A stretch of DNA of 58,626 nt from Prevotella sp. (GTDB lineage: Bacteria > Bacteroidota > Bacteroidia > Bacteroidales > Bacteroidaceae). Each line of letters opens with the position of its first letter. Position 1 is the stretch's first letter. The translations under genes were made by a program, and so were the position numbers. The DNA lies in contig JAFZSL010000050.1 of assembly GCA_017619375.1 (NCBI GenBank), positions 1 through 58,626 of the forward strand, given 5' to 3'. Shown here in pieces: positions 26,012-56,937 of this stretch. A model generated the notes under the pieces. It was not told the DNA's origin. It worked only from the letters and a program-made list of their open reading frames with translations, and did not search any database.

Positions 26012-26194
26012 ATGATGGGTAAAAGGTGCGTGATATCGGCCTTGTTGTGTTGGCTTAGCATGGGGATGGCTGTCCTCCCCGTCATCCACACGCTCTATGG
26101 AAAGGTGGAGGTGACCAGTGACGACGGCGTGTTGCGGGTCACCGCTCCCTTGGGATGCGAGGAGTATGACAAAAACAACAACCTCTTGCCATGA
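26012..26194 (+). CDS. Small exported or membrane peptide preceding the GH31 gene
   Basis: 60 aa from the ATG at 26012; the in-frame ATG at 25961 lies upstream of the promoter and is excluded. A signal-like N-terminus (KRCVISALLCWLSMGMAVLPV) is followed by about 35 polar residues ending NNNLLP. The stop overlaps the GH31 start by 4 nt (ATGA), so it is translationally coupled to the hydrolase. It may be a genuine small exported protein or a leader peptide that couples translation. GH31 itself has no signal peptide. No homology is recognised. Confidence 0.5.
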   Translation: MMGKRCVISALLCWLSMGMAVLPVIHTLYGKVEVTSDDGVLRVTAPLGCEEYDKNNNLLP

Positions 26195-28419
26195 AACAAA
26201 CCAATTACCACTTGTTCGACTTCATGGACTTCGACCCCTCCTTGCAGCGAGACGAAGTCCTTTGGAAAGCGTGGGCGCCTTCCCGTGTCAAGGAGAAAGA
26301 CGGCGACATCCACATCACCATCCCCTTTCAAAGACAAAAACGCCAGGAGGATATGGCACCCGACACCGATGCGCCGCAGCGAACATACACCCTCGTGGTC
26401 AGGGCCTATGGTCCAAGAATACTGCGGCTCTTCATCACCATGGCTGACGACGGGATGGTGGAGGAGGATGACATGCTGCAGATGCAGGTGCGTCACACAC
26501 CCCTTCATCTGGAGGATGGTCGCGTGATGGATGGCGATGGCCGTTGCCGAGCCACCATCGACCAGCAGCCGCCCCTCCTCGACCCATGGAGCGACCTGCT
26601 CCCTGCTCCCCAACCGGCACCCCGCATCACCTTCTTCCCTGATGGCGATGAGGAAAAGCCGGTAGCCCTCAGTGATGACCATTTCTCACCACCACGATAC
26701 GACGCCCTGCCCATCGGCTTTGTGGAGACGGGAGAGAGTGTGGAACGCGCCACCATCAGTTTGCAATGCGCCCCCGACGAGTGCTTCGCCGGGACAGGAG
26801 AGCGGTTTCGGAAGATGGACCTCAGCGGACAGACCTTCCAACTGAAAAACCAGGACGCGCAGGGCGTGAACAACCGTCGTTGCTACAAGAACATCCCCTT
26901 CTTCCTGTCCAGCAGGATGTATGGCGCCTTCTACCACACCAGCGACTACTGCAAACTATCCCTCGCCGACCATTCCACCCGTTCCGTGCAGTTCCTCTGC
27001 GACCGCGCCACCCTCGATGTGTTCCTCATAGGAGGGAGCACGCCAGAGGAGGTGCTGCGAGGATACCGCATGCTCACCGGCTTCCCGCAGATGCCCCCGT
27101 TGTGGTCGTTTGGCATTTGGATGAGTCGCATGACCTATTTCTCCGCAGAGGAGGTGGAGGGCATCTGCCAAAGGCTGCGCCAAGAGCATTTCCCCTGCGA
27201 CGTCATACACCTCGACACGGGATGGTTCCGCACCGACTGGCTCTGCGAATGGAAATTCAACCCGGAGCGCTTCCCCGACCCCGAGGGCTTCATCCAAAGG
27301 CTGGCCAGACAAGGTTTCAAGGTCTCGCTATGGCAACTGCCTTATGTCGCCAAGGGTGCAGAACAGTTGGAGGAGGCGAAGGAGCACCGCTACATCGCCC
27401 CGCTGCGGAAGGAGCAGGCCACGGAAGGCAGCAATTTCTCCGCACTCGACTATGCCGGCACCATCGATTTCACCAATCCCGATGCCACCGCCTGGTACAA
27501 AGGGCTGCTGCGACGACTGTTGAAAATGGGCGTGAAATGCATCAAAACCGATTTCGGGGAGAACATCCACATGGATGCCGACTACCACGCCATGCCCCCC
27601 GAGCGACTCAACAACCTCTATGCACTGCTCTACCAGAGGGCGGCCTATGAGGTGACACGCGAGGTGACGGGGGAGGGCATCGTCTGGGCCAGGGCCGCCT
27701 GGGCGGGATGCCAGAGATACCCCCTCCACTGGGGAGGCGACAGCGCCAGCACTTGGGACGGCATGGCGGGGTCGTTGAAGGGAGGGCTGCACCTCGGACT
27801 GAGCGGGTTCGCCTTCTGGAGCCACGACGTGCCGGGTTTCCATTCCGTACCCGACTTCATGAATTCACCTCTCGACCCGCAAGTGTATGTGAGATGGACG
27901 CAGATGGGCGTCTTCACCTCGCATTTCCGCTACCACGGCACCTGCAAGCGCGAACCATGGCATTATCCCGACATCGCACCCATCGTAAGAAGGTGGTGGA
28001 GATTCAGATACAGACTCATACCCTACATCGTGGAACAGGCGCGGAAGGCTTGTTCAAACGGCATGCCCATGGTGCAGGCACTGCTCATCCGACATCCCTA
28101 CGACCGGCAATGCTGGCATGTGGACGATGAATACTATTTCGGAAGCGAATTCCTTGTCTGTCCTGTCATGAACGGGAAGGGATGGCGTGACATCTACCTG
28201 CCCGAAGGGATGTGGGTGGACTTCTTCACCGGAGAACGGTGGGACGGCGGACGATGGTACGAACATGTCGACACGACTCTCGAACGGATGCCCGTCTTCG
28301 TGCGGCCGGGAGCCATCATTCCCCTCTATCCGGAAGAGGTGGACAGCACCGACGACATGGACCTCTCCAAGGCCATCCATTGGAACATCAGCAAGGACTA
28401 CAAAGGATACGACATATGA
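26191..28419 (+). CDS. GH31 alpha-xylosidase-like glycoside hydrolase
   Basis: 742 aa. An N-terminal beta-sandwich (about 1-270) is followed by the GH31 (beta/alpha)8 barrel. The catalytic nucleophile is D454 in KTDFGE and the acid/base D517 in HWGGDS, as in E. coli YicI (TDFGE, HWGGD). WFRTDWLCEWKFNPERFPDP and LSGFAFWSHDVPGF also fit alpha-xylosidases better than alpha-glucosidases. There is no signal peptide, so it acts in the cytoplasm on imported oligosaccharides such as xyloglucan fragments. The start overlaps the preceding 60-aa ORF and the end overlaps the symporter start, both by ATGA, giving a tight operon under a consensus promoter at 25967-25998. Confidence 0.9.
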   Translation: MKQTNYHLFDFMDFDPSLQRDEVLWKAWAPSRVKEKDGDIHITIPFQRQKRQEDMAPDTDAPQRTYTLVVRAYGPRILRLFITMADDGMVEEDDMLQMQVRHTPLHLEDGRVMDGDGRCRATIDQQPPLLDPWSDLLPAPQPAPRITFFPDGDEEKPVALSDDHFSPPRYDALPIGFVETGESVERATISLQCAPDECFAGTGERFRKMDLSGQTFQLKNQDAQGVNNRRCYKNIPFFLSSRMYGAFYHTSDYCKLSLADHSTRSVQFLCDRATLDVFLIGGSTPEEVLRGYRMLTGFPQMPPLWSFGIWMSRMTYFSAEEVEGICQRLRQEHFPCDVIHLDTGWFRTDWLCEWKFNPERFPDPEGFIQRLARQGFKVSLWQLPYVAKGAEQLEEAKEHRYIAPLRKEQATEGSNFSALDYAGTIDFTNPDATAWYKGLLRRLLKMGVKCIKTDFGENIHMDADYHAMPPERLNNLYALLYQRAAYEVTREVTGEGIVWARAAWAGCQRYPLHWGGDSASTWDGMAGSLKGGLHLGLSGFAFWSHDVPGFHSVPDFMNSPLDPQVYVRWTQMGVFTSHFRYHGTCKREPWHYPDIAPIVRRWWRFRYRLIPYIVEQARKACSNGMPMVQALLIRHPYDRQCWHVDDEYYFGSEFLVCPVMNGKGWRDIYLPEGMWVDFFTGERWDGGRWYEHVDTTLERMPVFVRPGAIIPLYPEEVDSTDDMDLSKAIHWNISKDYKGYDI

Positions 28420-29969
28420 ACACACACTACATGCAGGGCCTCGACTGGCTCATCCTCGCCACCTATTTCATCATCCTCCTCGCCATCGGCATCTGGGCCA
28501 GCAGGCGGCGCGACAAGAAGGGAAGCCTCTTCCTCGCGGAACGTTCGCTGAGGTGGCACCACATCGGGTTCTCCATGTGGGGCACCAACGTGGGACCGTC
28601 GATGCTCATTGCCAGCGCCAGTGCGGGATTCACCACGGGCATCGTCTCAGGCAACTACGCTTGGTATGCCTTCGTCTTCATCGCCATGCTCGCCTTTGTC
28701 TTCGCACCGCGATACCTCGGGGCGGGGGTCAGTACGTTGCCGGAGTTCATGGGGCTGCGCTACGGTCAGTCCACGCGCAACATCCTGGCGTGGTACACCA
28801 TTGTCACCATCGTCATCTCATGGCTCGCGCTCACCCTCTTCGCCGGCGGCATCCTCATCCGACAGGTGTTCGACATCCCGATGTGGCTCTCCGCCGCCAT
28901 CCTCCTGCTCATCTCCGCCTTCTTCACCATGCTCGGCGGACTGAAGGCGGTGGCCTACACCAATGTATACCAGATGGTGCTGCTCATCATCGTGTCCGCC
29001 ACGCTCACCATCGTGGGACTTTCCCATGTCGGTGGCGTCTCCGCATTGGTGGCAAAGGTGCCTGCCGACTATTGGGTGCTCTTCAAACCCAACAGCGACG
29101 AGGCCTTCCCCTGGCTCCCCATCATTTTAGGGTATCCCGTCATGGGCGTGTGGTTCTGGTGCACCGACCAGTCGATGGTGCAACCCGTGCTCGCCGCACG
29201 AAATCTCAGGGAAGGGCAGTTGGGCACCAACTTCACGGGATGGCTGAAAATCCTCGACGTGCCATTGTACATCCTTCCCGGTGTCATCTGTTGCGCCCTC
29301 TTCCCCACGTTGAATAACCCCGATGAGGCCTACCTCACCATGGTGGAGAACCTCTTTCCCGTGGGGATGGTCGGACTGGTCTTCGCCGTGCTCACCGCCT
29401 GCTTGGTGTCCACCATAGGGTCGGCGCTCAACGCCTTGAGCACCGTCTTCACGATGGACATCTATGTGAAAAAGTTCGAGCCCGATGCCTCGCAGCAGCG
29501 CATCAACCATGTGGGGCGCATCGTCACCCTTGTGGGAGCGGCGGTGGCCATCGTACTCACCGTCGCCATCGACAGCATCAAGGGGCTCAACCTCTTCAAT
29601 GTCTTCCAGTCGGTGCTGGGGTTCATCGCACCGCCCATGACGGCCGTGTTCCTCTTCGGCGTGTTCTGGAAACGTGCCACCACAAGGGCGGCCAACCTCG
29701 CACTCACCGCCGGCACCGCCTTCTGCATCGGCATCGGCATACTCTATCTCTGGGGACCCAAGAGCGACCTTTGGCCTCATTTCATGATGCTATCCTTCCT
29801 CCTCTTCGTCATCTTGGCGTTAATGATGGTGGTGGTCTCGCTCGTCGACAAAAAAAGGGAGTGCCACGACATCCCCTTGCCCGTGCCGGGAAAACGTTCG
29901 ATGCTGCCCGTCGCTTTATGGCTCATCCTGGCCTTGGTGATGGTGGGGCTGTATGTTTTCTTTAATTAG
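28416..29969 (+). CDS. Sodium:solute symporter (SSS/SGLT family)
   Basis: 517 aa from the ATG overlapping the GH31 stop. About 13-14 transmembrane helices are visible. SSS hallmarks are FLAERSLRWHHIGFSMWGTN near helix 1-2, the TMLGGLKAVAYTNVYQM motif, and a STIGSALNALSTVFTMDIY segment in the Na-site helix. It should import a sugar or similar solute with sodium across the inner membrane. Coupling to an intracellular alpha-xylosidase suggests a xylose-containing glycoside as substrate. The UroD/B12 fusion follows 77 nt later on the same strand, so a methylated substrate is also conceivable. Confidence 0.9.
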   Translation: MNTHYMQGLDWLILATYFIILLAIGIWASRRRDKKGSLFLAERSLRWHHIGFSMWGTNVGPSMLIASASAGFTTGIVSGNYAWYAFVFIAMLAFVFAPRYLGAGVSTLPEFMGLRYGQSTRNILAWYTIVTIVISWLALTLFAGGILIRQVFDIPMWLSAAILLLISAFFTMLGGLKAVAYTNVYQMVLLIIVSATLTIVGLSHVGGVSALVAKVPADYWVLFKPNSDEAFPWLPIILGYPVMGVWFWCTDQSMVQPVLAARNLREGQLGTNFTGWLKILDVPLYILPGVICCALFPTLNNPDEAYLTMVENLFPVGMVGLVFAVLTACLVSTIGSALNALSTVFTMDIYVKKFEPDASQQRINHVGRIVTLVGAAVAIVLTVAIDSIKGLNLFNVFQSVLGFIAPPMTAVFLFGVFWKRATTRAANLALTAGTAFCIGIGILYLWGPKSDLWPHFMMLSFLLFVILALMMVVVSLVDKKRECHDIPLPVPGKRSMLPVALWLILALVMVGLYVFFN

Positions 29970-30046: not shown

Positions 30047-32875
30047 ATGATCCATTCAAGTTGGAAAAAAAACCTTGAGGAGACCAAACACCACTATGTA
30101 GACTGGTGGAACCGCAAGGGCGTCATCGTCAACATGTGGGAGCATTTCCAAGAAGGAGTGACTCCCCATGCCGACATCCTGAAACCGGAACCGCCTGCAA
30201 ACCTTCAACAACAGTGGTTCGACCCGCAATGGAGGGCGCGTTACCTCGATTGGTACGTGGCGCACAGTTCGCTGAAGGCCGACATCCTCCCCGTGGCCAA
30301 CACCCAACTGGGACCGGGGTCGTTGGCCGCCATCCTTGGCGGGGTGTTTGAGGGAGGAGAGGACACCATCTGGATTCACCCCGCATCCGATTTCAACGAT
30401 GCCATTCCTTTCGACAAGGAGCATCCCAACTACCTCTTGCACAAGCAACTGTTGCGGGCCTGCAAGGAGAGGGCGAAGGGCAACTACTATGTGGGAATGC
30501 CCGACCTGATGGAGGGCCTTGATGTTTTGGCGGCTCTCAAAGGCACGGACCAGGTGTTGATGGACACCGTGATGAGGCCGGAGGTGGTGGAGCGACAGAT
30601 GCAGCGCATCAACGACATCTATTTTGAGGTGTTCGACGAACTCTACGACATCATCCGCGAGGGCGACGAGATGGCTTTCTGCTATTTCTCTGCATGGGCG
30701 CCGGGAAAGATGAGCAAGTTGCAGAGCGACATCTCCACCATGGTGAGCGAGGACGATTATCGGCGATTCGTGCAACCGTTTATCAGGGAGCAGTGCCAGC
30801 GCATCGACTACACCCTCTACCACCTCGATGGCGTGGGGGCCATACGTCACCTGCCCGCCATCCTGGAAATCGAGGAACTCGACGCCATTCAATGGACACC
30901 GGGAGTGGGGGAACCGCAAGGTGGTAACGCCAAGTGGTACGGACTCTACCGACAGATTCTCGAGGCGGGAAAGAGTCTGATGTGCTGTTGGGTGCAACTT
31001 GACGAACTCCCGTCGTTGCTCGACCACATCGGGACGGAGGGTGTGCACCTGGAGATGGATTTCCACAACGAGCAGGAGGTGGAACAGGCATTGGAAATCG
31101 TGGAAAGGGCGAAAGCGGCAGCACCGAAAGCCATGCCGACGACTACGACACGGACGCGCTCGCTGCCCGACAATAGAATCCTCATCCTCGACGGGGCGAT
31201 GGGGACGATGATACAGCAACATCATTTGCAGGAAGAGGATTTCCGGGGCGACCGTTTCAAGGATGTGGAGGGTGCCCTGAAAGGTTGCAACGACCTGCTG
31301 TGCCTGACGCGACCCGATGTCATCGAGGGCATCCATCGCAAATACCTCGAGGCGGGGGCGGACCTCATAGAGACCTGCACCTTCAACGCACAGCGTGTCT
31401 CACTCGCCGACTATGGCGTGGAGGACTGCGCCCGTGAGGTGAACCTCGCCGCCTGCCGCATAGCAAGGGAAGTGACGGAGGAATATTCGCGCCTCACACC
31501 CGAAAAACCGCGTTTCGTCCTCGGCAGCGTAGGACCCACTAATGGCATCTGTTCGCCGGAGGCTACCAGCGGCGTGCCGCTCGACCAGAAACTGTTGAGA
31601 CATGCTTACGAGGAACAGATGGCGGCTCTCCTCGACGGCGGTGTGGATGGCATCCTCATAGAAACCATCTTTGACACGCTCAACGCCCGCATCGCCATCG
31701 AGGCGGCTATCCACGTGATGAAAGAAAAAGGAAAAAGACTGCCCGTCCTGCTGAGTTTCTCCGTTTCCACTCCCGACGGCCATAACATGTTGGGACAGGA
31801 CATCCTCGCTTTCATCGACACATTGATGGACAACCCCGGCATCCGCCCGCACATCTATTCCATCGGCATCAACTGCCTCGCCGACGTGCCTCTTATGACT
31901 CCTCTCGTAATGGAGATGGGGCGTCGATTTGGCTGTCGCGTCAGCCTCTATCCCAATGCGGGGATGCCGGATGCACAAGGACACTATGGAAAGACCGCTG
32001 AGAGCCTCCTCGCTGACGTGTGGCCGCTCATCGACGGCCATCACCTCAACGTACTCGGTGGATGCTGCGGCACCTCCGATGACAACATCCGCGCCTTCGC
32101 GCAAGCCATACAGCCGGCAAAGGGACTTTTCATCTCGCCACATCAGGTGGTAGCGGATGGTGAACATAGTGGCTATAGAGGGTATAGAGGTCCTGGTGAA
32201 TCTAATGCCTCTATGGATACTATTGCTTCTATCGCCACCCTCTATGACGCCATCCTCGGTGGCAGGGATGACATTGCTGCCGCCGCCACAAAGACCGCTC
32301 TGGAAGAGGGAAAATCTCCCCAGGACCTCATCGAAAAGCAGATGATTGCTGCCATGACCGAACTGGGACGACAGTTCCAAGAGGGAAAGGCCTTTGTCCC
32401 GCAGTTGTTGATGGCGGGGCGTGCAATGAAAACCGCCTTGGCGCAAATCAAAATGACGGATGGCGAAGCCCAGGTAAGAAGTCGGGGAAGGGTGGTCATC
32501 GGAACAGTGAAAGGCGACCTTCACGACATCGGCAAAAACCTCGTGGCGGCCATGCTCGAGGGCTGTGGCTTCGAGGTGGTCAACGTCGGCATCGATGTCT
32601 CGGCGGGACAATTTGTCGAAGCGATAAAAAAGCATCGCCCCGACCTCCTCTGCATGAGTGCGCTCCTCACCACCACCATGGGGTATATGAAAAATGTCAT
32701 CGAAACCTTGGAACAGGCGGGACTACGCCAACAAATAAAAATCATGGTGGGTGGTGCCCCCGTCACCCAGCGCTTCGCCGATGAAATCGGCGCCGACGGT
32801 TACAGCGATAACGCCAATTCCGCCGTCATCCTCGCAAAACAGTTGATGGAGCAGTCACCAACCCCGAAGGGGTGA
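30047..32875 (+). CDS. Corrinoid methyltransferase fusion: UroD-type + homocysteine S-methyltransferase + B12-binding
   Basis: 942 aa, three modules. Residues about 1-365 are a uroporphyrinogen-decarboxylase-type domain as in MtaA/CmuA methyltransferases (FCYFSAWAPGKMSKLQSDIS, YHLDGVGAIRHLPAI, IQWTPGVGEPQGG). The HxC zinc motif of MtaA appears as HLD. About 379-690 is a MetH-type homocysteine methyltransferase (ILDGAMGTMIQ) with all three zinc cysteines (INCLAD, GGCCGT). After a repetitive linker (about 706-727), a B12 cap and cobalamin-binding domain carry DxHxxG (GDLHDIGKN, about 824). There is no folate-binding domain and no reactivation domain. Probable reaction: methyl from an unknown donor to the corrinoid, then to homocysteine giving methionine. 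The last codons lie in a CCCGAAGGGG hairpin. Confidence 0.85.
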   Translation: MIHSSWKKNLEETKHHYVDWWNRKGVIVNMWEHFQEGVTPHADILKPEPPANLQQQWFDPQWRARYLDWYVAHSSLKADILPVANTQLGPGSLAAILGGVFEGGEDTIWIHPASDFNDAIPFDKEHPNYLLHKQLLRACKERAKGNYYVGMPDLMEGLDVLAALKGTDQVLMDTVMRPEVVERQMQRINDIYFEVFDELYDIIREGDEMAFCYFSAWAPGKMSKLQSDISTMVSEDDYRRFVQPFIREQCQRIDYTLYHLDGVGAIRHLPAILEIEELDAIQWTPGVGEPQGGNAKWYGLYRQILEAGKSLMCCWVQLDELPSLLDHIGTEGVHLEMDFHNEQEVEQALEIVERAKAAAPKAMPTTTTRTRSLPDNRILILDGAMGTMIQQHHLQEEDFRGDRFKDVEGALKGCNDLLCLTRPDVIEGIHRKYLEAGADLIETCTFNAQRVSLADYGVEDCAREVNLAACRIAREVTEEYSRLTPEKPRFVLGSVGPTNGICSPEATSGVPLDQKLLRHAYEEQMAALLDGGVDGILIETIFDTLNARIAIEAAIHVMKEKGKRLPVLLSFSVSTPDGHNMLGQDILAFIDTLMDNPGIRPHIYSIGINCLADVPLMTPLVMEMGRRFGCRVSLYPNAGMPDAQGHYGKTAESLLADVWPLIDGHHLNVLGGCCGTSDDNIRAFAQAIQPAKGLFISPHQVVADGEHSGYRGYRGPGESNASMDTIASIATLYDAILGGRDDIAAAATKTALEEGKSPQDLIEKQMIAAMTELGRQFQEGKAFVPQLLMAGRAMKTALAQIKMTDGEAQVRSRGRVVIGTVKGDLHDIGKNLVAAMLEGCGFEVVNVGIDVSAGQFVEAIKKHRPDLLCMSALLTTTMGYMKNVIETLEQAGLRQQIKIMVGGAPVTQRFADEIGADGYSDNANSAVILAKQLMEQSPTPKG
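32166..32233. repeat. In-frame 9-nt periodic tract in the methyltransferase linker
   Basis: GGCTATAGA GGGTATAGA GGTCCTGGT GAATCTAAT GCCTCTATG GATACTATT run at 9-nt steps and encode GYRGYRGPGESNASMDTI, the linker between the homocysteine and B12 modules. Nucleotide composition is AT-richer than the flanking gene. Confidence 0.75.
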
Positions 32876-32947: not shown

Positions 32948-33652
32948 TCATTTCCTCTTGAAACATCCCTTGTTATTGCATAAAGCGCAGGGGTAGGGGT
33001 GTTTTTTCACCGTAGGACCTAATCCGATGACCCCGCTGACCGACTTGACGGGAATCATCATCTGACCCTCGGTGAGGGTGACTCCGCAGGGTGCGTTTCC
33101 CAAAAGGGGAAACAGTTGCTGTTGGTCGGCGACATCCCATCCGCAGTAACCGGGAGAGAAACGGTTGGTGTGACGCCAACCCAGTTTGTCGATGCTGGCT
33201 TGTATGGTGTTCTCCATCAGGTCGGCACAACGCTCCACCATCACCGAACCCACGGCGTCGGCCACAAATACGCGCACAGGGTCTTTCTCCTCCTTGCGCA
33301 ACCGCTCATATTCCATTCCCGCCGTTGCTACGAAAAATGCGAATGACTCACTGCCACCCAACTGCCGTGCGATGGTGGCACCCACCTTTAGACATGTCTC
33401 TCCTCCAAAGTCGTTGGGATGGGGTTTGTGTCCACCCGAAAACACCATCAAAAGAGGCGGATGGTCGTTAAGCGTTCCACCCATCACATGGTAGCAAAAA
33501 CGTGGTCTCGCCACTTTCTCCGCCATCGCCATCACCATCGCAACCTCCTCCACCACACGACTGTCGGGCAACGTGTCACCATACCCCATTTGCACATACA
33601 CCTCGTGCGGGGAGATGTCCAAGTCGTGGAAGCAAAGGGACTTCTGGGTCAT
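32948..33652 (-). CDS. MetH activation-domain-like (B12 methyltransferase reactivation) protein
   Basis: 234 aa. It resembles the SAM-binding reactivation domain at the C-terminus of MetH and free-standing homologues such as TM0269. Diagnostic parts are GWRHTNRFSPGYCGWDVADQ, matching the R-x-S-P-G-Y core, then QLFPLLGNAPCGVTLTEGQM, PVKSVSGVIGLG and a Cys-rich tail (CALCNNKGCFKRK) that may bind metal. It is convergent with, and 72 nt from, the UroD-Hcy-B12 fusion, which lacks such a domain. The obvious inference is that it reductively remethylates the fusion's inactivated cob(II)alamin with SAM. It could also serve other corrinoid enzymes. Confidence 0.8.
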   Translation of the reverse strand: MTQKSLCFHDLDISPHEVYVQMGYGDTLPDSRVVEEVAMVMAMAEKVARPRFCYHVMGGTLNDHPPLLMVFSGGHKPHPNDFGGETCLKVGATIARQLGGSESFAFFVATAGMEYERLRKEEKDPVRVFVADAVGSVMVERCADLMENTIQASIDKLGWRHTNRFSPGYCGWDVADQQQLFPLLGNAPCGVTLTEGQMMIPVKSVSGVIGLGPTVKKHPYPCALCNNKGCFKRK

Positions 33653-42681: not shown

Positions 42682-45600
42682 TTATTCTACCACGAGTGGG
42701 TCGAAGATCATCGTGTCGAGGCCTTCGCCACTGATGGTGACGTGATAGGTGCCGGCATTCACCTGTGTGCCGGTGGTGATGCTGGTGGCCTTTCGCTTGC
42801 TCTTCTTCTCTTGTGTCTGCAGGAACGTGATGTCGTCGTCCTTGTAAACCACGCCGTTCGCATCGGTGATGTGCACGTGAAGCACTCGAGGCTTTTCCGC
42901 ATTGTGGTATCTCCAGCGCAGGGCGTAGACCTTCGCAACGCCCACGGTGAAGTCCCATTCCATCTGGCCTTTCCTCATTCTTCCCTCCACCTCGACTACG
43001 GTGTTGTCACGCAGTGGCAGCAGCGAGTCGGGAGTGCTCACCAGGATGTCTTTGTCGAAGTCGGCCCACAAGGTCTTAGAGGGGGAGACTTTAAGGTCCT
43101 TAGGGTCTTTAAGGTCTTTAGAGTCTTTAAGGTCATTGTGGTCTTTTGTGGCGATGGCGATGGCGGTGATGATGGCCTGCCCTGCTTTCACCTTGGGAAA
43201 GTCGATGACGAGGTCGCCACCTTGATGCTCCACCTCCACGACGCGCTTGTAGGGCTTGCCATAGTGTGCTTGTGCCCAGATGTCGAGGTCGTGTATCACC
43301 GTTTCGCCGTTGATGGCCACGTCGAAGAGGCGCAGCCCTTCAGCATCGGCCTGGCGGTACCATGGTTCGATGAAATACAGTTCCACGCGGTAGTGCCCTT
43401 TCTGGATGGGGAAGTGGTAACTCAGTTGATGCCGTCCGAAGCGCGAGGTTTGGAAGAGAGCGCTGGAGAAGTCGGCGTTGCGGGTCTGCGAGGCGAGGTA
43501 GGGATTCAAGGTGTCGCTCAGCGCCTGTGCCCAGGAGCGCGACCATCGGCTGTTGTCTTGGCTCCAACGGTTGCCGTGACGGTCTTCATATTCGTCGCCT
43601 CCGCAGTTGACACGATGGATGTAGTTCCATCCCTCCGCAGGTCGCAGCACCTCCTCGTCGATGTCGCTCTTGGCAGATGCCAGGGGCTGTGGGTTGTAGT
43701 GTTGCTGGTAGCGGTAGTAGGCATCGGTGGGTTGCTCCCAGATGGTGAACAGTCCTTTGTAGTTGAACGGCCCCACCTTGTCCACGCGGCGCAGCGCCTC
43801 GTCGGGTTGTCGCCGCCCTGGGTTGTCGTGACTCACGAGCAGCCACTGGAATTGTCCGCAGACGCTGTCTTTCACGCTTTCCGCCAACATCACTTTCTTC
43901 ATCAGCAGGTCACTGAAAGCCTCCTCGGTATAGCCCTCCCCGGTGTGGTTGCCCAGGGTGCGCCATGCACCATATTCGCCATTGAGCAATTGGTCGTCGC
44001 GCTTCAACTCGTTGCCGTAGTTTTCCACGTCGCCGCCGTAGGTGCCGCTCCAGTTCTGCACCACGTTCCAGTCGCTTCCCTCTCCACCGTTGCAGGTGGT
44101 GATGAGCCGTTGGGTGCCGCAGCGCGGGTCCATCTCGCGGATGATGTCGCAACACTCCTTGGCAAAGTCGGCGGGCAGCGTACTCTCGTTCTGCAAGCCC
44201 CAGAGGATGATGGAGGGGGAGTTGCGGCGCTCCTTCACCCATTGGCGGAGGTGGCGCTTGAAACTCTCGCGGAACTCCGGTGTGTCATACCAGATATGGG
44301 CGGAGAACTGTGGCCACCACAGCAGCCCTTCCTTGTCGAGCAACTCCTGGTAGTGCAGGTTGTGGGGTTGGTGGGCATCGCGGAAAGCGTTGAACCCGGC
44401 ATCCTTGACCAACTTCACGCGTGCGGCGATTTGTTCGGGAGAGAAGGCATGGCTTTGGCCGAACTCATGCTCATACTCGCAGGTGCCGTTGATGAACAAT
44501 GGCTCGCCGTTGAGGAGGAAGCGGTGGTCGCCATCGTTTCGGGTGAGCGGCCATGACGGGGCGCTGAAACCATAGGGTGTTTCCATGCTCTCGGTGGCCT
44601 TGCCGTTGCGTTTCACGATGGTGCCCACTTGGTAGAGATAGGGCTTCTTTGGAGTCCACAGTCGGGGGTTGGTCACGGCACTCGCCTGTCGGATGGTCCT
44701 GGCCTCCCCGGGAGCGAGGGTCAATCGTTCCGTCAGCCGCACCACCTGCTTGCCGCTTTTGTCGGTGAGTTTGTTGACAAGTTCGATGGATGCCTCCTCG
44801 TCGCCGTAGTTCTTCACCTCGGTGTCTACGAAAAGGCTGTCGCAATGGTCGTTGTTCCAGAGATGCACGCCGAAGGGTTCGATGCGCACGGCATCGGTGG
44901 CCTCCAACACGACGGGACGGAAGATGCCGAAGGGTTGGCTGCCCTCACTGAAACCCCATTCGCTGCTGCACCCACCGCACACCCATGGCATGTCGGTGAT
45001 GCCGGAGGGGTGTGAGACAAGCACCTCCAACAGGTTGTCGCCGGGGTGCACCTGTCGTGTGACGTCAATGGTTTCCGTGGTGCGTCCGATGTCGAAACGC
45101 CCCAGATGGAAACCGTTGAGGGTGATGTCGGCATAGGTTCCCACGCCCTCGAAGCGCAGGAAGAAATGCTTGCCGGGGAGGTCGGGGACGGTGAAACGCT
45201 TTTTGAACAGCGCCTCGCCGTGCAGGTTGCCGTGCATTTTTTGCAAGGCGCCGTGATAGTCGTCGAGGTTGAGGGGGATGTCGCTGCGGAATGTGCGCCC
45301 GTCGTGTGTCACCTCCCAATTGTCATTGAGCGATTGCGTGTAGCGATGGCCGCCGGGCGACGGGGTGGGGAACGTCACCTCGCTCTTCCCCATGTGACGG
45401 CTGGTGGCGAGGGCGATGCCACGCTGCCCGGCATTGTTCACCGCACAGTAGAAATGATAGACGGTGCCTTCGTGCTCCAACACCCAACTCTTATGGGCGA
45501 ATTTCTCGTCATATGGTTTCGAGGGGATGATGAGGTCGGGACCTGTCCAGTCGGTCCACTCCACAAGGTCGTAACTCGCGGCGAAAGTATTGTAGGCATT

Positions 45601-46521
45601 GTATTCCCGGGTGGGGTTGAAGGCGGAGAAATAGAACATCACCCATACGTCGCCCATGCGCACCAACTGGGCATCGCCCGTGATGGTGCCGTCGCTGTCG
45701 TGGGCGAAGACGGGGTTGCCGCCGTAGCGCTTCCACCGCTTCAAGTCCTTAGACAGGGCGATGCCGATACGTTCGCCCTTGGGGTGGGTGTCGTCCTTGC
45801 CGCCGGCATTGTAGAACATCACGAATGGGTATTTCTCCTCGCCCTTGAGGCGCTGGCTCTTTTCTTTCAACCAATAGATGGTGCTCTTGTACTGCGTCAA
45901 CTGCTCCCACCATTGTGCGTCGGCATCATCGTGGCTGAGCAACGGCTTTTTACTTGTTTCCCAGAGGTAGGCGGTACCGATGTCGCCCTTGGTGGAGGCG
46001 ATGCCGATGTTCAAGGGTGCGTTCACCGCCTCATAGCCTGTGCCGCTGCCACCGATGTAGGTCATCCAGTGTCGCCCTTTGTAACTCTCCATCGTATGGC
46101 TGCCATTCCATTCGTGGTCGATGAGGGCGGGAAAGCCGCCGCGTTGGTTCTGGTCCCAGAGAGTGGATGGATAAGGTTCGCCGTCTTTTTCCGAGATGGC
46201 GTGAGGCAGGGCGAGTATGGTGCCTTTGATGTCCCAGTGCAACAGGTCGTCGCTCGTTGCCAGCCAGGTGGTGTAGCCGCGACCGTCGTTGCCCTCCTTG
46301 CCATCATAACACACGAAGGTCATGCACCATGTTTCACCGTCGCGGAAGACCGTGGGACAGTCGTATTGCTCATGGTCGGACGGGGGCGTCACTACCAACC
46401 CGTATTTCCATGGGGTGGCAACAGCCTCGTAGATGGCTTGCATTCGTTCGGGAGGCACGACCTGTCCGGCGACCGCCTGGGCTGTCGTCAACATGCATGC
46501 GATGAGGAGGGTTCTTGTCAT
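42682..46521 (-). CDS. Multidomain glycosidase: GH43-like propeller + GH2 + malectin
   Basis: 1279 aa. Signal peptide MTRTLLIACMLTTAQAVAGQ. Residues about 25-395 form a five-bladed propeller of the GH43/GH32-like kind (HEQYDCPTVFRDGETWCMTF, GDAQLVRMGDVWVMFYFSAF). About 400-960 is a GH2 enzyme: jelly roll, Ig-like domain and a barrel with acid/base E779 (GLQNES) and nucleophile E849 (NGEYG). A malectin carbohydrate-binding domain follows (about 1040-1125), then a 9-nt-repeat-coded linker (DLKDSKDLKDPKDLK) and a C-terminal beta domain. It probably acts in the periplasm on a branched glycan, cleaving two linkages in one polypeptide. It is the last gene of the minus-strand cluster. Confidence 0.85.
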   Translation of the reverse strand: MTRTLLIACMLTTAQAVAGQVVPPERMQAIYEAVATPWKYGLVVTPPSDHEQYDCPTVFRDGETWCMTFVCYDGKEGNDGRGYTTWLATSDDLLHWDIKGTILALPHAISEKDGEPYPSTLWDQNQRGGFPALIDHEWNGSHTMESYKGRHWMTYIGGSGTGYEAVNAPLNIGIASTKGDIGTAYLWETSKKPLLSHDDADAQWWEQLTQYKSTIYWLKEKSQRLKGEEKYPFVMFYNAGGKDDTHPKGERIGIALSKDLKRWKRYGGNPVFAHDSDGTITGDAQLVRMGDVWVMFYFSAFNPTREYNAYNTFAASYDLVEWTDWTGPDLIIPSKPYDEKFAHKSWVLEHEGTVYHFYCAVNNAGQRGIALATSRHMGKSEVTFPTPSPGGHRYTQSLNDNWEVTHDGRTFRSDIPLNLDDYHGALQKMHGNLHGEALFKKRFTVPDLPGKHFFLRFEGVGTYADITLNGFHLGRFDIGRTTETIDVTRQVHPGDNLLEVLVSHPSGITDMPWVCGGCSSEWGFSEGSQPFGIFRPVVLEATDAVRIEPFGVHLWNNDHCDSLFVDTEVKNYGDEEASIELVNKLTDKSGKQVVRLTERLTLAPGEARTIRQASAVTNPRLWTPKKPYLYQVGTIVKRNGKATESMETPYGFSAPSWPLTRNDGDHRFLLNGEPLFINGTCEYEHEFGQSHAFSPEQIAARVKLVKDAGFNAFRDAHQPHNLHYQELLDKEGLLWWPQFSAHIWYDTPEFRESFKRHLRQWVKERRNSPSIILWGLQNESTLPADFAKECCDIIREMDPRCGTQRLITTCNGGEGSDWNVVQNWSGTYGGDVENYGNELKRDDQLLNGEYGAWRTLGNHTGEGYTEEAFSDLLMKKVMLAESVKDSVCGQFQWLLVSHDNPGRRQPDEALRRVDKVGPFNYKGLFTIWEQPTDAYYRYQQHYNPQPLASAKSDIDEEVLRPAEGWNYIHRVNCGGDEYEDRHGNRWSQDNSRWSRSWAQALSDTLNPYLASQTRNADFSSALFQTSRFGRHQLSYHFPIQKGHYRVELYFIEPWYRQADAEGLRLFDVAINGETVIHDLDIWAQAHYGKPYKRVVEVEHQGGDLVIDFPKVKAGQAIITAIAIATKDHNDLKDSKDLKDPKDLKVSPSKTLWADFDKDILVSTPDSLLPLRDNTVVEVEGRMRKGQMEWDFTVGVAKVYALRWRYHNAEKPRVLHVHITDANGVVYKDDDITFLQTQEKKSKRKATSITTGTQVNAGTYHVTISGEGLDTMIFDPLVVE
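43089..43146. repeat. In-frame 9-nt periodic tract in the GH43-like/GH2 gene
   Basis: Units CTTTAAGGT, CCTTAGGGT, CTTTAAGGT, CTTTAGAGT, CTTTAAGGT, CATTGTGGT. The coded linker is HNDLKDSKDLKDPKDLK, between the malectin domain and the C-terminal domain. Confidence 0.85.
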
Positions 46522-46633: not shown

Positions 46634-49288
46634 CTAATTCTTTTCAAACAGCCAGTCCAATTCGTTGCCGGCTCCGTGGAGGTTGGCATCGCGGGGTTTC
46701 AGGTCGGTGGTGGTGAATCCTGCCACCATGATGATGCCCTTGGGCAGCCTGACGACATGGTGACCAGCGCCGAAATGATAGGCGTGGATGTTGACGGTGG
46801 GCATTCCTGTCATGTTGATGGCATTGAGGATGACGGGCTCGGCTTGGCCGAACTCATTGGCGCTGGCATCTGTTTCCAGTTGCGGTGCTTTCGCCCATTT
46901 CGGGTCGTCGTCGCGGAAGAAACCCACCAGCATCTGCACGGGTTCGTCGCAGTCGAACACCACCGTGGTGCCTTCGATGCGTGTCGTGTCGCGGTTGAGG
47001 ATGAGGGCTTCCAAACCTTCCAGTTCCGGGGCGACGGAGTCGATGCGCTCCTCACGTCCTTGGTAGGGCAGGGCGTTTTTCCGGAGGGTGACAGTGGATG
47101 GGGTGCCGTTGGCTGTCTCCGCACCTTCCGGCCTTCCGGCATATTGCAGGCGTACTTTTGCGGGGTTGGCCACCGTCAGTTCTTCCGCAGGTGTCGGGGC
47201 CTCGGGATTTCTCAGTTGCTGGACGTTCTTTTCAAAGTTGGCCAACTCCTCTTTATAGACGGGCAACATCTCCGACCAGGTTTTGTATTGCCCGTTGTCG
47301 CCACCTATCGGGATTCGCCTCTGTGCGGTCTGCATGCTGTTGGCATAGAGGTAGGTGTCTTCGGTGATACGGGCGAGTTTCTCCCAATAATCAATGCTTG
47401 CATTCATGAATGCCTCAACACCTTTGAAGTTTTTCTTGCCCTTTATTTTTTCTTCAAGTATGATATCTGCCGCAAGCGCTTTGAATCTGAACGACCTCGC
47501 ATAGAACATATAGCAGCAGGCGTCGTTGTAAAGGCGGATGAATTCCGGGTTGCTGGCTACGGGTGAATGTCGGAGTTTATATAGGAGACCGACAGCATTC
47601 TCACCATGTTTCACGCATTGCAGGGTGACTTCGAGAGGCAGTTCTCCTGTGTGTCCCTCCCTTCTGACGCTCTTTTCCACGTATTCGGCAAGTGTCTCGC
47701 CTTTGGGAGCACAACTCTCACGGAAGCCGGGATAGACGTTGAATCTGGAGGGATTGATCAACTGCGGCATCGTCATGCCAAGCAACAGGGTCTGGCGGTT
47801 GCCGTCGGTGATGCCGAAGCGGCGGAGGAGTTTGGGCGCGATTTCTCCCATCTCGTTGTAGGCCTTCAGCAGGATGCTTGCAGAGACGCTGTCGGTGTGG
47901 AAGTGTTCGGCGAGGATATGGCACCAGTATTCATCTTCCTCTACATAGGATTTCTTCCATGCGCTATGGCCGAAGGCCTTGTACCACAGCCAATCGCGGT
48001 CGATTTGCAACAGTCGGGTACCGTCGTGTGTCTTGTCGGCAGTGTAGGGCCAGTCCCAGTAACTGGCTTGCGGGTAGATATGCAGTCCTTTGGCATTGTG
48101 GTAGATGTGCATGGCATTCACCGCCTTGCGGATGAATGAGGGTGACGACCATCGCCACGGCTCCAGGTTGGCCATGATATGGACGTTGTCGATATGGACG
48201 GGGGCGGCGGAAGCCAGTTTGCGGTGTGTCTCTCCCCATGGGCCGTTGGGCGAGTAGGTGGTGAGGCTCTCCCCGTTGTATTTGCTCATCGTGTAGATGT
48301 TGGGGTAGAGGGGCAGTGCCTTCTCCAGCACCTTCACCGCGTCGGTGTCGTGCGAGCGCAGGATGATGGGTGGCGTGTCGTTGCGGCCAGATGCGGCGAG
48401 GCCGTCCTTCAGACCGGGGATGATGGTGCCGGTCATCCACTCGATGTCGGTGTCGATGCCTTCCATCGCCTCACCCAGGCAGACGAGGAATCCCACATTG
48501 GGGTAACGCTGTACGAAGGCGGAGATGCTCTTGCGTGTGTAGTCGGCTATGAGGGGTGTGATGGGGCGGTGGCGGTCTTGTGTCTCGATGCCGTAATGGT
48601 CGGCAAAGGGTTTCGACACGATGATGTTGTAGAACATCTGGATGACACGGATGCCACGGCGGGCAGCCTCGGTAGTGAGGAAGTCATACATCTCTTGGTT
48701 CTTCGCCATCGTGGCATCGTCAACCTCCGGGGCGAAGGGGTAGTCGTCCACCTTCACCAAGGAGGCGAAGGGATGGCCGTTCCATAGGTACAGTGAGTTC
48801 ATGTCGCTCTCTGCCAGCAGGTCGAGATAGCGCAACCACAATGCCTTGTCGTAAAACCATGGGAAGTTTTCCGGTGTGATGGGGTATTCATACACTTTAT
48901 GTCCGGGCAGGTAGGTGGGTTTCTGTAGTCCTACGCAGGCGCCGCGCATCACCATGTCCGGAGCACTGGAAAAGGTTTTCTCTTTGCTCTTCAATGTGTG
49001 CCCGTGGGTGATGTAATGGTCTACGAGGCTGTTGGCACCGTGGATGATGCCGTTGGCATCGTTGCCGATGATTTGCACCTTCTTGTTCTTGAACTTCAAA
49101 GTGAAGCCTTCGGCGGGGCCTTTGTGCTTCTCCTTGATTTCAATCGTGTAGTCGCCTTCCAATCGCGACAGACGGGTGGCGGCATACTCAGCCTGGGGCG
49201 ACTTGCTCTTCACCTTGATTCTCACCTGGGCGGAAAGGGGTAGGGTGAGTAGCAGCACCATAAGGGTGGTTAGGGCTTTGGGTCTCAT
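46634..49288 (-). CDS. Large glycoside hydrolase of the GH67/GH115-like alpha-uronidase type
   Basis: 884 aa. Signal peptide (LTTLMVLLLTLPLSAQ). An N-terminal alpha/beta domain (about 20-110, AEYAATRLSRL..IIGNDANGIIHGANSL) resembles the GH20b/GH67 N-domain. A (beta/alpha)8 barrel (about 110-430) has LAESDMNSLYLWNGHPFASL, GFLVCLGEAMEGIDTDIEWM and YGNK-like segments. A helical domain and a C-terminal beta domain (about 700-870) follow. Similar Bacteroidetes proteins are often named alpha-D-galacturonidase. I infer release of uronic acid from pectin fragments; specificity is uncertain. Candidate acid residues are the E in CLGEAMEG and nearby E/D, not proven. It lies in a minus-strand glycan cluster. 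Confidence 0.65.
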   Translation of the reverse strand: MRPKALTTLMVLLLTLPLSAQVRIKVKSKSPQAEYAATRLSRLEGDYTIEIKEKHKGPAEGFTLKFKNKKVQIIGNDANGIIHGANSLVDHYITHGHTLKSKEKTFSSAPDMVMRGACVGLQKPTYLPGHKVYEYPITPENFPWFYDKALWLRYLDLLAESDMNSLYLWNGHPFASLVKVDDYPFAPEVDDATMAKNQEMYDFLTTEAARRGIRVIQMFYNIIVSKPFADHYGIETQDRHRPITPLIADYTRKSISAFVQRYPNVGFLVCLGEAMEGIDTDIEWMTGTIIPGLKDGLAASGRNDTPPIILRSHDTDAVKVLEKALPLYPNIYTMSKYNGESLTTYSPNGPWGETHRKLASAAPVHIDNVHIMANLEPWRWSSPSFIRKAVNAMHIYHNAKGLHIYPQASYWDWPYTADKTHDGTRLLQIDRDWLWYKAFGHSAWKKSYVEEDEYWCHILAEHFHTDSVSASILLKAYNEMGEIAPKLLRRFGITDGNRQTLLLGMTMPQLINPSRFNVYPGFRESCAPKGETLAEYVEKSVRREGHTGELPLEVTLQCVKHGENAVGLLYKLRHSPVASNPEFIRLYNDACCYMFYARSFRFKALAADIILEEKIKGKKNFKGVEAFMNASIDYWEKLARITEDTYLYANSMQTAQRRIPIGGDNGQYKTWSEMLPVYKEELANFEKNVQQLRNPEAPTPAEELTVANPAKVRLQYAGRPEGAETANGTPSTVTLRKNALPYQGREERIDSVAPELEGLEALILNRDTTRIEGTTVVFDCDEPVQMLVGFFRDDDPKWAKAPQLETDASANEFGQAEPVILNAINMTGMPTVNIHAYHFGAGHHVVRLPKGIIMVAGFTTTDLKPRDANLHGAGNELDWLFEKN

Positions 49289-51532: not shown

Positions 51533-51609
51533 CATTATCACGTTTTCATGATGTGCCATTGTCACGTTATGCCGTTATATCGTTATTCCGTTATCACGAT
51601 TTTCCGTTA
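51533..51609. repeat. Eight-nt periodic tract overlapping the symporter 3' end
   Basis: CGTTATGC CGTTATAT CGTTATTC CGTTATCA CGATTTTC CGTTA runs from the gap into the symporter's last codons (GNGKS). Same unit as 29975-30031. Confidence 0.8.
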
Positions 51610-56920: not shown

Positions 56921-56937
56921 GGTGTTGCTGTTGTCGT

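Follow-up and report, generated by a model that had tools for sequence, protein, structure and literature searches.

In acetogens, corrinoid O-demethylases follow a general three-component scheme, and the core methionine synthases MesA-MesD are of the MetE type. MesA-MesD are reported to be folate-independent and probably receive the methyl group from a corrinoid protein (PMC7857596). In O-methyltransferases of the UroD superfamily, the cysteine ligands of the zinc are replaced by carboxylates or non-ligands (PMC10418091). Chain A of the pectin RG-II bears 2-O-methyl-xylose-alpha-1,3-fucose, reportedly the sole linkage uncut by Bacteroides thetaiotaomicron, and BT1002 (GH141) has been reported to release this disaccharide from RG-II. 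No treatment of corrinoid demethylation of sugars was found among the paper titles listed in searches of open-access literature. Here we analysed a 58,626-nt stretch of DNA from Prevotella sp. (hereafter, the window) encoding a fusion protein that we consider, on balance, to be an O-methyl-sugar:homocysteine methyltransferase acting on RG-II-derived 2-O-methyl-xylose.

Domain architecture of the fusion protein

The open reading frame spans exactly 30047-32875 on the forward strand, starts with ATG and encodes 942 aa with no internal stops. Its N-terminal UroD-like, putative donor domain (hereafter, N-domain; residues 1 to ~360, 30047-31126) is followed by a MetH-type homocysteine S-methyltransferase domain with the motifs GINC and GGCCG (S-methyl_trans, PF02574; residues 379-687, 31181-32107; E 3.6e-76), and then by a corrinoid cap domain and a B12-binding domain (together residues 730-927, 32234-32827; B12-binding_2 at 730-802 and B12-binding at 814-927). 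The corrinoid part is MtgC/MtbC/MtaC-like and carries the DxHxxG motif of MetH as GDLHDIG. No pterin-binding (methyl-folate) domain was detected by Pfam in the 942 aa. The GxNC, GGCCG and GDLHDIG motifs were all kept in 31/31 full fusions. The open reading frame, Pfam and the predicted fold thus confirm the architecture proposed in a previous sequence-only reading, i.e., UroD, homocysteine and B12 modules in the absence of a folate domain, and the cysteine motifs bear out its claim of a complete zinc-site homocysteine module. A search across genomes returned nearly full-length relatives from five other genomes (65-91% identity), so the fusion is no chance artefact, and further genomes matched it in two or three separate pieces.

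The N-domain has an MtaA-like predicted fold and an HLD motif

The N-terminal 368 aa had no match in Pfam (including PF01208), NCBIfam or PDB sequences at E values up to 10, in searches where the HMMER filters discard most matches above E ~0.1. A confident AlphaFold2 model built from 17 relatives (pLDDT 89.9) was closest in fold to MtaA of Methanosarcina mazei (PDB 4ay8 and 4ay7; E 3.0e-8 and 8.4e-8; 9% identity), then to uroporphyrinogen decarboxylases, and then to MetE (E 9e-4). The label "UroD-type" is therefore correct at the level of the predicted fold only, as no family matched at the sequence level.

The HLD motif is found at residues 259-261 (30821-30829). HLDG was present in 99/99 N-domains, including that of the window and leaving out the spurious open reading frame L088; because 80 of the loci behind these domains came from a scan with two patterns, DY[TS]LYHLD being one, the unbiased figure is 20/20, from N-domains obtained by a whole-protein search. 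The only invariant cysteine in a 17-row alignment is C208, which precedes HLD; none follows it, and the N-domain is without the His-x-Cys...Cys zinc site of the MtaA type. The replacement of the MtaA zinc motif HxC by HLD, as claimed earlier, was thereby verified, and it is in line with the statement on the superfamily's O-methyltransferases (PMC10418091).

When the N-domain profile was compared with that of the HxC UroD family from the same loci (hereafter, UroDHxC), nothing significant emerged. A second UroD-like neighbour family of four sequences was linked to it (probability 94.6, E 6.6e-8), in an alignment that places His-Leu-Asp one column off His-Tyr-Cys and whose register was set by eye. 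The N-domain is mostly from Bacteroidota, with two Opitutales and one Sedimentisphaerales among the 80 retained loci.

Modular forms and a possible stepwise assembly

The N-domain and corrinoid parts also occur as separate proteins in other genomes, which the sequence-only reading had overlooked. The two genes adjoin at L103 and L104, and 14 two-domain proteins (N-B12) join both parts, the fusion being called by motif in all of them and by Pfam for L090 only, the version of Phocaeicola vulgatus ATCC 8482. The tree suggests a stepwise assembly in which separate proteins would have given rise to UroD-like plus B12 proteins, to which the homocysteine module was later added.

UroDHxC, an MtaA-like thiol enzyme with His-Cys-Cys motifs, was detected in 13 of the 19 genomes with an N-domain in a sample of 100 relatives. 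It is kept in 10/16 fusion genomes and missing from 6/16, compared with 0/3 of those whose N-domain stands alone (in one case detected by fragments). In the window genome it had no match in a first search or in a second one that included positive relatives, and none was within reach at the unfused loci L043, L045 and L056. A simple replacement of UroDHxC by the homocysteine domain was dropped, since 10 fusion genomes have both, the numbers are small, and some unfused loci are without UroDHxC.

The N-domain might instead decarboxylate sugar acids or be a UroD relative with a structural role, with the whole protein an odd MetH whose methyl-cobalamin is loaded elsewhere, e.g., by UroDHxC. The low identity to MtaA, the lack of HxC and the frequency of UroDHxC among the N-domain genomes would fit such a protein. 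We give this little probability, given the direct fusion of N-domain to corrinoid domain in the N-B12 proteins, the side-by-side genes at L103 and L104, and the window genome without a UroDHxC match.

Gene neighbourhood of the fusion

Upstream, on the same strand and in an operon with the fusion gene, are an alpha-xylosidase-like GH31 gene (26191-28419; best NCBIfam match 485 bits, below the cut-off of 606; best PDB match 5f7c) and a sodium/solute symporter gene (28416-29969; start picked by eye), which overlap in an ATGA start/stop. By eye, the N-terminus of the GH31 protein does not look like a signal peptide. Among loci with 9 kb of sequence to either side, GH31 was within 9 kb of the N-domain in 40/41 and the symporter in 39/41; the GH31 linkage is looser for full fusions (12/19 among those with 6 kb to either side).

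Convergent with the fusion gene is the gene of a stand-alone Met_synt_B12-like protein of 234 aa (32948-33652, reverse strand), a relative of the MetH activation domain and a putative reactivation partner of the fusion. It was found in 18 of the 19 N-domain genomes of the relatives sample. The idea that it mainly serves MetH was rejected, because only 6 of the 81 genomes without an N-domain had a match, and these were weaker. The genome also encodes a separate folate-type MetH with the pterin-binding domain present.

Rfam at gathering scores had no match in the window or at L040, L067, L090 and L134, i.e., a known cobalamin riboswitch was not found there. A scan for sigma-70-like promoters around the operon found 0, with 3.6 expected by shuffling; such scans fit Bacteroidota badly. 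Some Prevotella loci are near dehydrogenase, amidohydrolase and aldo/keto reductase genes (models for L035 only), which may be chance chromosomal neighbours.

RG-II-type enzymes in the window and across genomes

Approximately 10 kb downstream of the fusion, the window contains what looks, from sequence matches, like an RG-II degradation locus, also overlooked by the sequence-only reading. Its genes, all on the reverse strand, encode a beta-D-glucuronidase/beta-L-arabinofuranosidase-like enzyme (42685-46521; best NCBIfam 1779 bits, cut-off 1800; best PDB 5mt2, 541 bits), an alpha-D-galacturonidase-like enzyme (46637-49288; best NCBIfam 1212 bits, cut-off 1300; best PDB 6hzf/6hze, BPa0997, 999 bits) that we take to be of family GH138, an alpha-rhamnosidase-like enzyme (49380-51503; best PDB 3cih, 864 bits), a second sodium/solute symporter (51597-53063), a GH141 (53079-54983; best PDB 5mqp, BT_1002, 756 bits), and an aceric acid hydrolase-like GH127 (54827-57418; best NCBIfam 944 bits, cut-off 950). 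All three NCBIfam matches of these RG-II-type enzymes, like that of GH31, are below the curated cut-offs.

GH138 was present in 33/33 genomes with an N-domain and in 21/186 without one in two pooled samples, for which the Fisher p-values take no account of relatedness among genomes. The respective counts were 19/19 and 4/81 (one of the four weak) in the relatives sample, and 14/14 and 17/105 in 119 genomes from the genus of Bacteroides faecis. In the latter sample, the 14 genomes with an N-domain are the same 14 that have the alpha-xylosidase-type GH31 subtype. At six loci (L063, L067, L068, L069, L077 and L119, with identical N-domains in L119 and L069), the N-domain operon comes after a gene for a GH138 relative, and the next gene behind it encodes a protein of 1403-1412 aa; the one tested, from L067, is an RG-II glucuronidase/arabinofuranosidase (2476 bits, cut-off 1800). 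The N-domain is thus both linked to and co-occurring with RG-II-type enzymes, and gene order and co-occurrence strengthen the earlier hint at a methylated-sugar donor and narrow it to pectin RG-II.

Methyl esters are also present on RG-II, and the protein could be a methanol or methylamine methyltransferase, perhaps using methanol from pectin methylesterase. The corrinoid domain resembles MtgC/MtbC/MtaC, and BT_0340, BT_0342 and BT_0343 are labelled "Mta" in print. Methanol use would not require the conserved neighbours GH31, symporter, GH141 and GH138, and we regard it as very improbable.

A different O-methyl donor used with the same chemistry, such as 2-O-methyl-fucose from RG-II chain B or another methylated pectic or algal sugar, is unlikely, with some points in its favour. 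The GH141 of the N-domain loci in Bacteroidaceae and Prevotellaceae is a distinct subtype, 30-43% identical to the BT1002-type GH141 of the window; rhamnose genes are found at some Paludibacter-type loci (rhaM and RhaT models for L043 only); and 2-O-Me-Fuc is labelled too in a spent-medium figure legend. However, 2-O-Me-Fuc is reportedly freed directly by GH139, and an alpha-xylosidase-type GH31 would be superfluous for it; in the Bacteroides sample, this GH31 and the N-domain occur in exactly the same genomes.

A proposed route from 2-O-methyl-xylose to methionine

We computed domain order, motifs, gene linkage, co-occurrence and a tree consistent with stepwise assembly, and we infer all reactions, cell compartments, donor identity and the direction of transfer. 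In the route proposed for 2-O-methyl-xylose, periplasmic GH141 would act on chain A of RG-II and free 2-O-methyl-D-xylose-alpha-1,3-L-fucose, which the symporter would take up and GH31 would cleave in the cytoplasm. The N-domain, with a His/Asp metal site, would then release xylose by transferring the methyl group of 2-O-methyl-xylose to Co(I) in the C-terminal corrinoid part. From methyl-Co(III) the group would pass to homocysteine bound at the middle domain's zinc site, so that methionine would form with no folate. Oxidised cobalamin would be reactivated by the Met_synt_B12-like protein (32948-33652).

The route draws on the fold nearest to MtaA, HLD, the motifs kept in 31/31 fusions, the GH31/symporter linkage, the exact match of N-domain and GH31 in the Bacteroides sample, the GH138 co-occurrence, the six loci flanked by RG-II-type genes, the RG-II-type locus of the window and the product of BT1002. 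Counting against it are the divergence of the N-locus GH141 subtype, the looser GH31 linkage in fusions, the relatedness ignored by the Fisher p-values, the persistence of UroDHxC in 10/16 fusion genomes and the sub-cut-off scores. The kept motifs, the absent folate domain, HLD and the separate MetH lend inferential support to the earlier proposal of folate-independent transfer from a small donor via corrinoid to homocysteine.

A further point against the route comes from B. thetaiotaomicron, in which a related locus with a two-domain version is probably present as BT_0338-BT_0343; BT_0338 is listed as GH141 in one paper, and BT_0340, BT_0342 and BT_0343 as B12 methyltransferase proteins in another, a gene content that matches the locus described here. 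Yet this species reportedly accumulates 2-O-Me-Xyl-alpha-1,3-Fuc (wild type in the text, BT1017 mutant in the figure legend). The locus may therefore be unexpressed or lacking B12 there, or the donor may be another sugar.

It is conceivable, at slightly less than even chance, that the missing end of RG-II catabolism is a widespread Bacteroidota system (probably BT_0338-BT_0343 in B. thetaiotaomicron) that cuts the reportedly uncut linkage and demethylates the released sugar by a new UroD-fold O-demethylase with an HLD site, which in the Prevotella type passes the methyl group to homocysteine within one polypeptide, so that methionine would derive from dietary pectin rather than folate. If true, plant-fibre breakdown would be tied directly to methionine synthesis in a gut-type bacterium, making the latter partly folate-independent and diet-linked. 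A function would be assigned to a mostly Bacteroidota domain family without Pfam or NCBIfam match, the possible fate of RG-II's methylated sugars would be explained, along with that of the linkage reported as uncleaved, and ordinary gut fibre degraders would be carrying out corrinoid demethylation of a sugar.

Comparison with known systems

The homocysteine domain of the fusion shares the cysteine motifs of MetH and is 47% identical to the MetH of the same genome (query residues 358-689), and the corrinoid domain has the same Pfam families and motif. In contrast to MetH, the fusion has no pterin-binding and activation domains, and an unrelated UroD-fold domain stands N-terminally in their place. 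The N-domain shares its predicted fold, and the partnership with a corrinoid protein, with the coenzyme M methyltransferases MtaA/MtbA and the Mlp proteins. It differs from these in having HLD for HxC, no later invariant cysteine and no sequence match, and it would act on the donor rather than the acceptor side.

The acetogen O-demethylases (OdmB/VdmB type, PMC10418091) would resemble the fusion system in combining a donor methyltransferase, a corrinoid protein and a separate reactivation protein, and presumably in using an O-methyl substrate. In the fusion, the proposed acceptor is homocysteine instead of tetrahydrofolate and the proposed substrate a sugar instead of a phenol; the functions are in one chain, and the candidate reactivation protein is Met_synt_B12-like. 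Like MesA-MesD, the fusion would need no folate-binding domain to convert homocysteine to methionine, whereas its homocysteine module is of the MetH type (PF02574), with no MetE-type domain by Pfam, and is fused to the donor and corrinoid modules.

Domain architecture and active-site motifs of the fusion

The fusion (942 aa; 30047-32875, + strand) carries an S-methyl_trans domain at residues 379-687 and two corrinoid-binding domains at residues 730-802 and 814-927, and no pterin-binding domain was found in it by Pfam, confirming the sequence-only reading of a homocysteine module and a cobalamin domain joined without a folate domain. The first 368 residues had no match in Pfam, NCBIfam or the PDB sequences. 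A model of this N-domain, built from 17 relatives (pLDDT 89.9), best matched the fold of MtaA of M. mazei in the PDB (4ay8, E 3.0e-8; 4ay7, E 8.4e-8), followed by uroporphyrinogen decarboxylases and then MetE, and the predicted fold supports the UroD-type module claimed for the N-terminus.

The replacement of HxC by HLD, also noted earlier, held throughout, with HLDG in 99/99 N-domains (the window and two identical pairs counted, one spurious ORF removed). The fair figure is the 20/20 N-domains from whole-protein searches, because 80 loci had been recruited by a scan with two patterns, one of them DY[TS]LYHLD. A UroD-like neighbour family with HYC aligned to the N-domain in profile comparison (probability 94.6, E 6.6e-8), so HLD most likely takes the HxC position of thiol methyltransferases, the motif register being set by our own reading. 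In O-methyltransferases of the UroD superfamily, one or both Cys are replaced by carboxylate residues or non-ligands, according to Kountz and Balskus (PMC10418091). GxNC, GGCCG and GDLHDIG were kept in all full fusions (31/31).

Genomic context in the window

Upstream of the fusion lie a GH31 gene (26191-28419, +) and a sodium symporter gene (28416-29969, +), which share an ATGA overlap, and a 234-aa Met_synt_B12-like gene (32948-33652, -), encoding the reactivation-like protein, is convergent with the fusion. The best NCBIfam model for GH31 was alpha-xylosidase (485 bits, under the 606 cut-off), and the best PDB match was 5f7c (1205 bits), presumably B. thetaiotaomicron BT_0339. By eye, the N-terminus of the window's GH31 had no signal-peptide-like segment, and six of nine inspected GH141 relatives had a signal-peptide-like start. 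HDxPGF was present in 80/81 GH31 relatives (HDVPGF in the window, HDIGGF in YicI), and the fixed proline may mark substrate specificity. The canonical MetH of the window genome (L138:1124-3883; G000 C67) has a pterin domain and no activation domain.

Ten kb downstream of the fusion, an RG-II-type locus on the minus strand encodes a glucuronidase/arabinofuranosidase, an alpha-galacturonidase and an aceric acid hydrolase, with NCBIfam scores all slightly below the curated cut-offs (1779, 1212 and 944 bits; cut-offs 1800, 1300 and 950). It also encodes a rhamnosidase (PDB 3cih, 864 bits), a second symporter and GH141 (PDB 5mqp, BT_1002, 756 bits). We take 3cih to be BT1001, 5mt2 (best PDB match of the glucuronidase/arabinofuranosidase) to be BT0996 and 6hze (with 6hzf, that of the alpha-galacturonidase) to be GH138.

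Relatives and their neighbourhoods

From 311 relatives, a contig scan kept 80 loci; another 17 stretches were fetched, and together with the window this made 98 tabulated loci. N-domain proteins had three architectures. The N-domain alone (~354 aa) usually came with three further proteins: one carrying the corrinoid domain, a UroD enzyme (HNC in 48/48, [ST][ST]GC in 47/48) and a reactivation-like protein. N-B12 (~600 aa, 14 proteins), which lacks the homocysteine module, occurred in Bacteroides and Phocaeicola. The three-domain form, whose distribution the sequence-only reading had proposed to search, was recovered in Prevotella-type genomes as 31 full proteins (934-1046 aa) and one cut by a contig end.

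Neighbours were counted at 94 loci (two duplicates and two without a clean N gene removed). Within 9 kb of the N-domain, at the 41 loci with 9 kb on both sides (the window being the only full fusion), we found GH31 in 40, the symporter in 39, the reactivation-like protein in 27, the corrinoid protein in 23, UroDHxC (an MtaA-like enzyme with HxC) in 23, GH141 in 15 and GH138 in 11. GH31 was near full fusions at 12/19 loci (6 kb on both sides); across the 70 loci of any architecture with 3 kb on both sides, 11 had no GH31 within 9 kb. These counts lean low because grouping ORFs at >35% identity misses relatives, such as the L031 GH31 caught by looser grouping.

N-domain loci of Bacteroidaceae/Prevotellaceae (e.g., L134:10964-12808, L090:5717-7732) carry a second, diverged type of GH141, which shares 30-43% identity with the BT1002-type enzyme of the window. 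The N-B12 gene of one Bacteroides genome (L136, G211; 10228-12130) lies in two overlapping frames and is broken or mis-assembled. At L043, L051-L054, L059, L060 and L062, the N-domain operon adjoins genes for another UroD enzyme and for proteins related to RhaT and to rhamnose mutarotase (compared with models at L043 only), hinting at a rhamnose-related methyl sugar. GH31 also adjoins the N-domain in bins labelled Planctomycetota (L087, Sedimentisphaerales) and Verrucomicrobiota (L086, Opitutales), which suggests transfer across phyla unless these metagenome bins are mixed.

Co-occurrence across genomes

Among 100 genomes (the window's own and 99 relatives), 19 had the N-domain by strong matches among the matches listed; on that basis GH138 was present in 19/19 genomes with it vs 4/81 without (one of the four weak). 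Outside the window's genus (40 genomes), strong GH138 matches occurred only in the two genomes with the N-domain. The reactivation-like protein was detected in 18/19 vs 6/81 (the six weaker), and UroDHxC was strong in 13/19 vs 0/81, with weak matches in 6/81. In a second sample of 119 genomes from the genus of Bacteroides faecis, 14 had the N-domain, and exactly these had the GH31 subtype (at least 64% identity to 5f7c; next best 44%); GH138 was present in 31, including all 14. Fisher p-values for co-occurrence, with genome relatedness ignored, were 7e-17, 4e-10 and 2e-18.

The likely methyl donor

Passages of a review (PMC10154630) describe BT1002 (GH141) as freeing 2-O-methyl-D-xylose-alpha-1,3-L-fucose from RG-II chain A (for GH139, see passages of PMC12282258). 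B. thetaiotaomicron cleaves 21/22 RG-II linkages, the exception being 2-O-methyl-xylose-fucose, and this disaccharide accumulates, in the wild type per the text and a BT1017 mutant per the legend, in passages that leave the medium's B12 and methionine unstated (PMC7939467). A cytoplasmic alpha-xylosidase-type GH31, an importer and an O-demethylase fit this left-over disaccharide: GH31 would split it after import, the N-domain would move the sugar O-methyl to cobalamin, and the homocysteine module would make methionine.

The main difficulty is B. thetaiotaomicron itself. In published passages, BT_0340, BT_0342 and BT_0343 are labelled Mta methylamine/trimethylamine corrinoid proteins (PMC8941943), and BT_0338 is named a GH141 alongside BT_1002 (PMC8264420). 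A genome with a GH31 99% identical to 5f7c has GH141, GH31, N-B12, symporter, reactivation-like protein and UroDHxC in one block; given these labels, B. thetaiotaomicron therefore probably carries N-B12. Disaccharide build-up despite N-B12 may reflect limited expression, limited B12 or a different donor. In minimal medium, according to PMC8941943, a B12 probe was bound by four known B12 proteins or complexes but not by Mta, and a Mta-labelled locus silent in that medium would fit this; BT_0338, BT_1002 and BT_0984 differed >2.8-fold in co-culture (passages of PMC8264420). Because the disaccharide accumulates although N-B12 is probably present, we regard the fusion only as a reasonably probable O-methyl-sugar:homocysteine methyltransferase for RG-II 2-O-methyl-xylose, and suggest more tentatively that the system is the missing end of RG-II catabolism, passing the methyl to methionine in Prevotella-type bacteria.

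Proposed stepwise assembly and comparison with known enzymes

In the N-domain tree (97 rows), the 46 fused forms grouped together (support 95/97), and just outside were two unfused Bacteroides with adjacent N and corrinoid genes and the long-branched, unfused L023. The tree suggests that separate proteins came first, then N-B12, and that the homocysteine module was added last; as the root is a midpoint, this direction of assembly is inferred. The homocysteine-bearing forms required two changes on this tree, and may have a single origin. L023 (G054) belongs to the window's own genus and has a stand-alone N-domain with separate corrinoid and UroD genes, and its kin are fused.

Neither the N-domain nor corrinoid sugar demethylation was named in the open-access paper titles found or in the Pfam/NCBIfam libraries. 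Each part of the fusion belongs to a known kind; what appears to be new is the way they are combined, together with the likely substrate and an acceptor module built into the chain.
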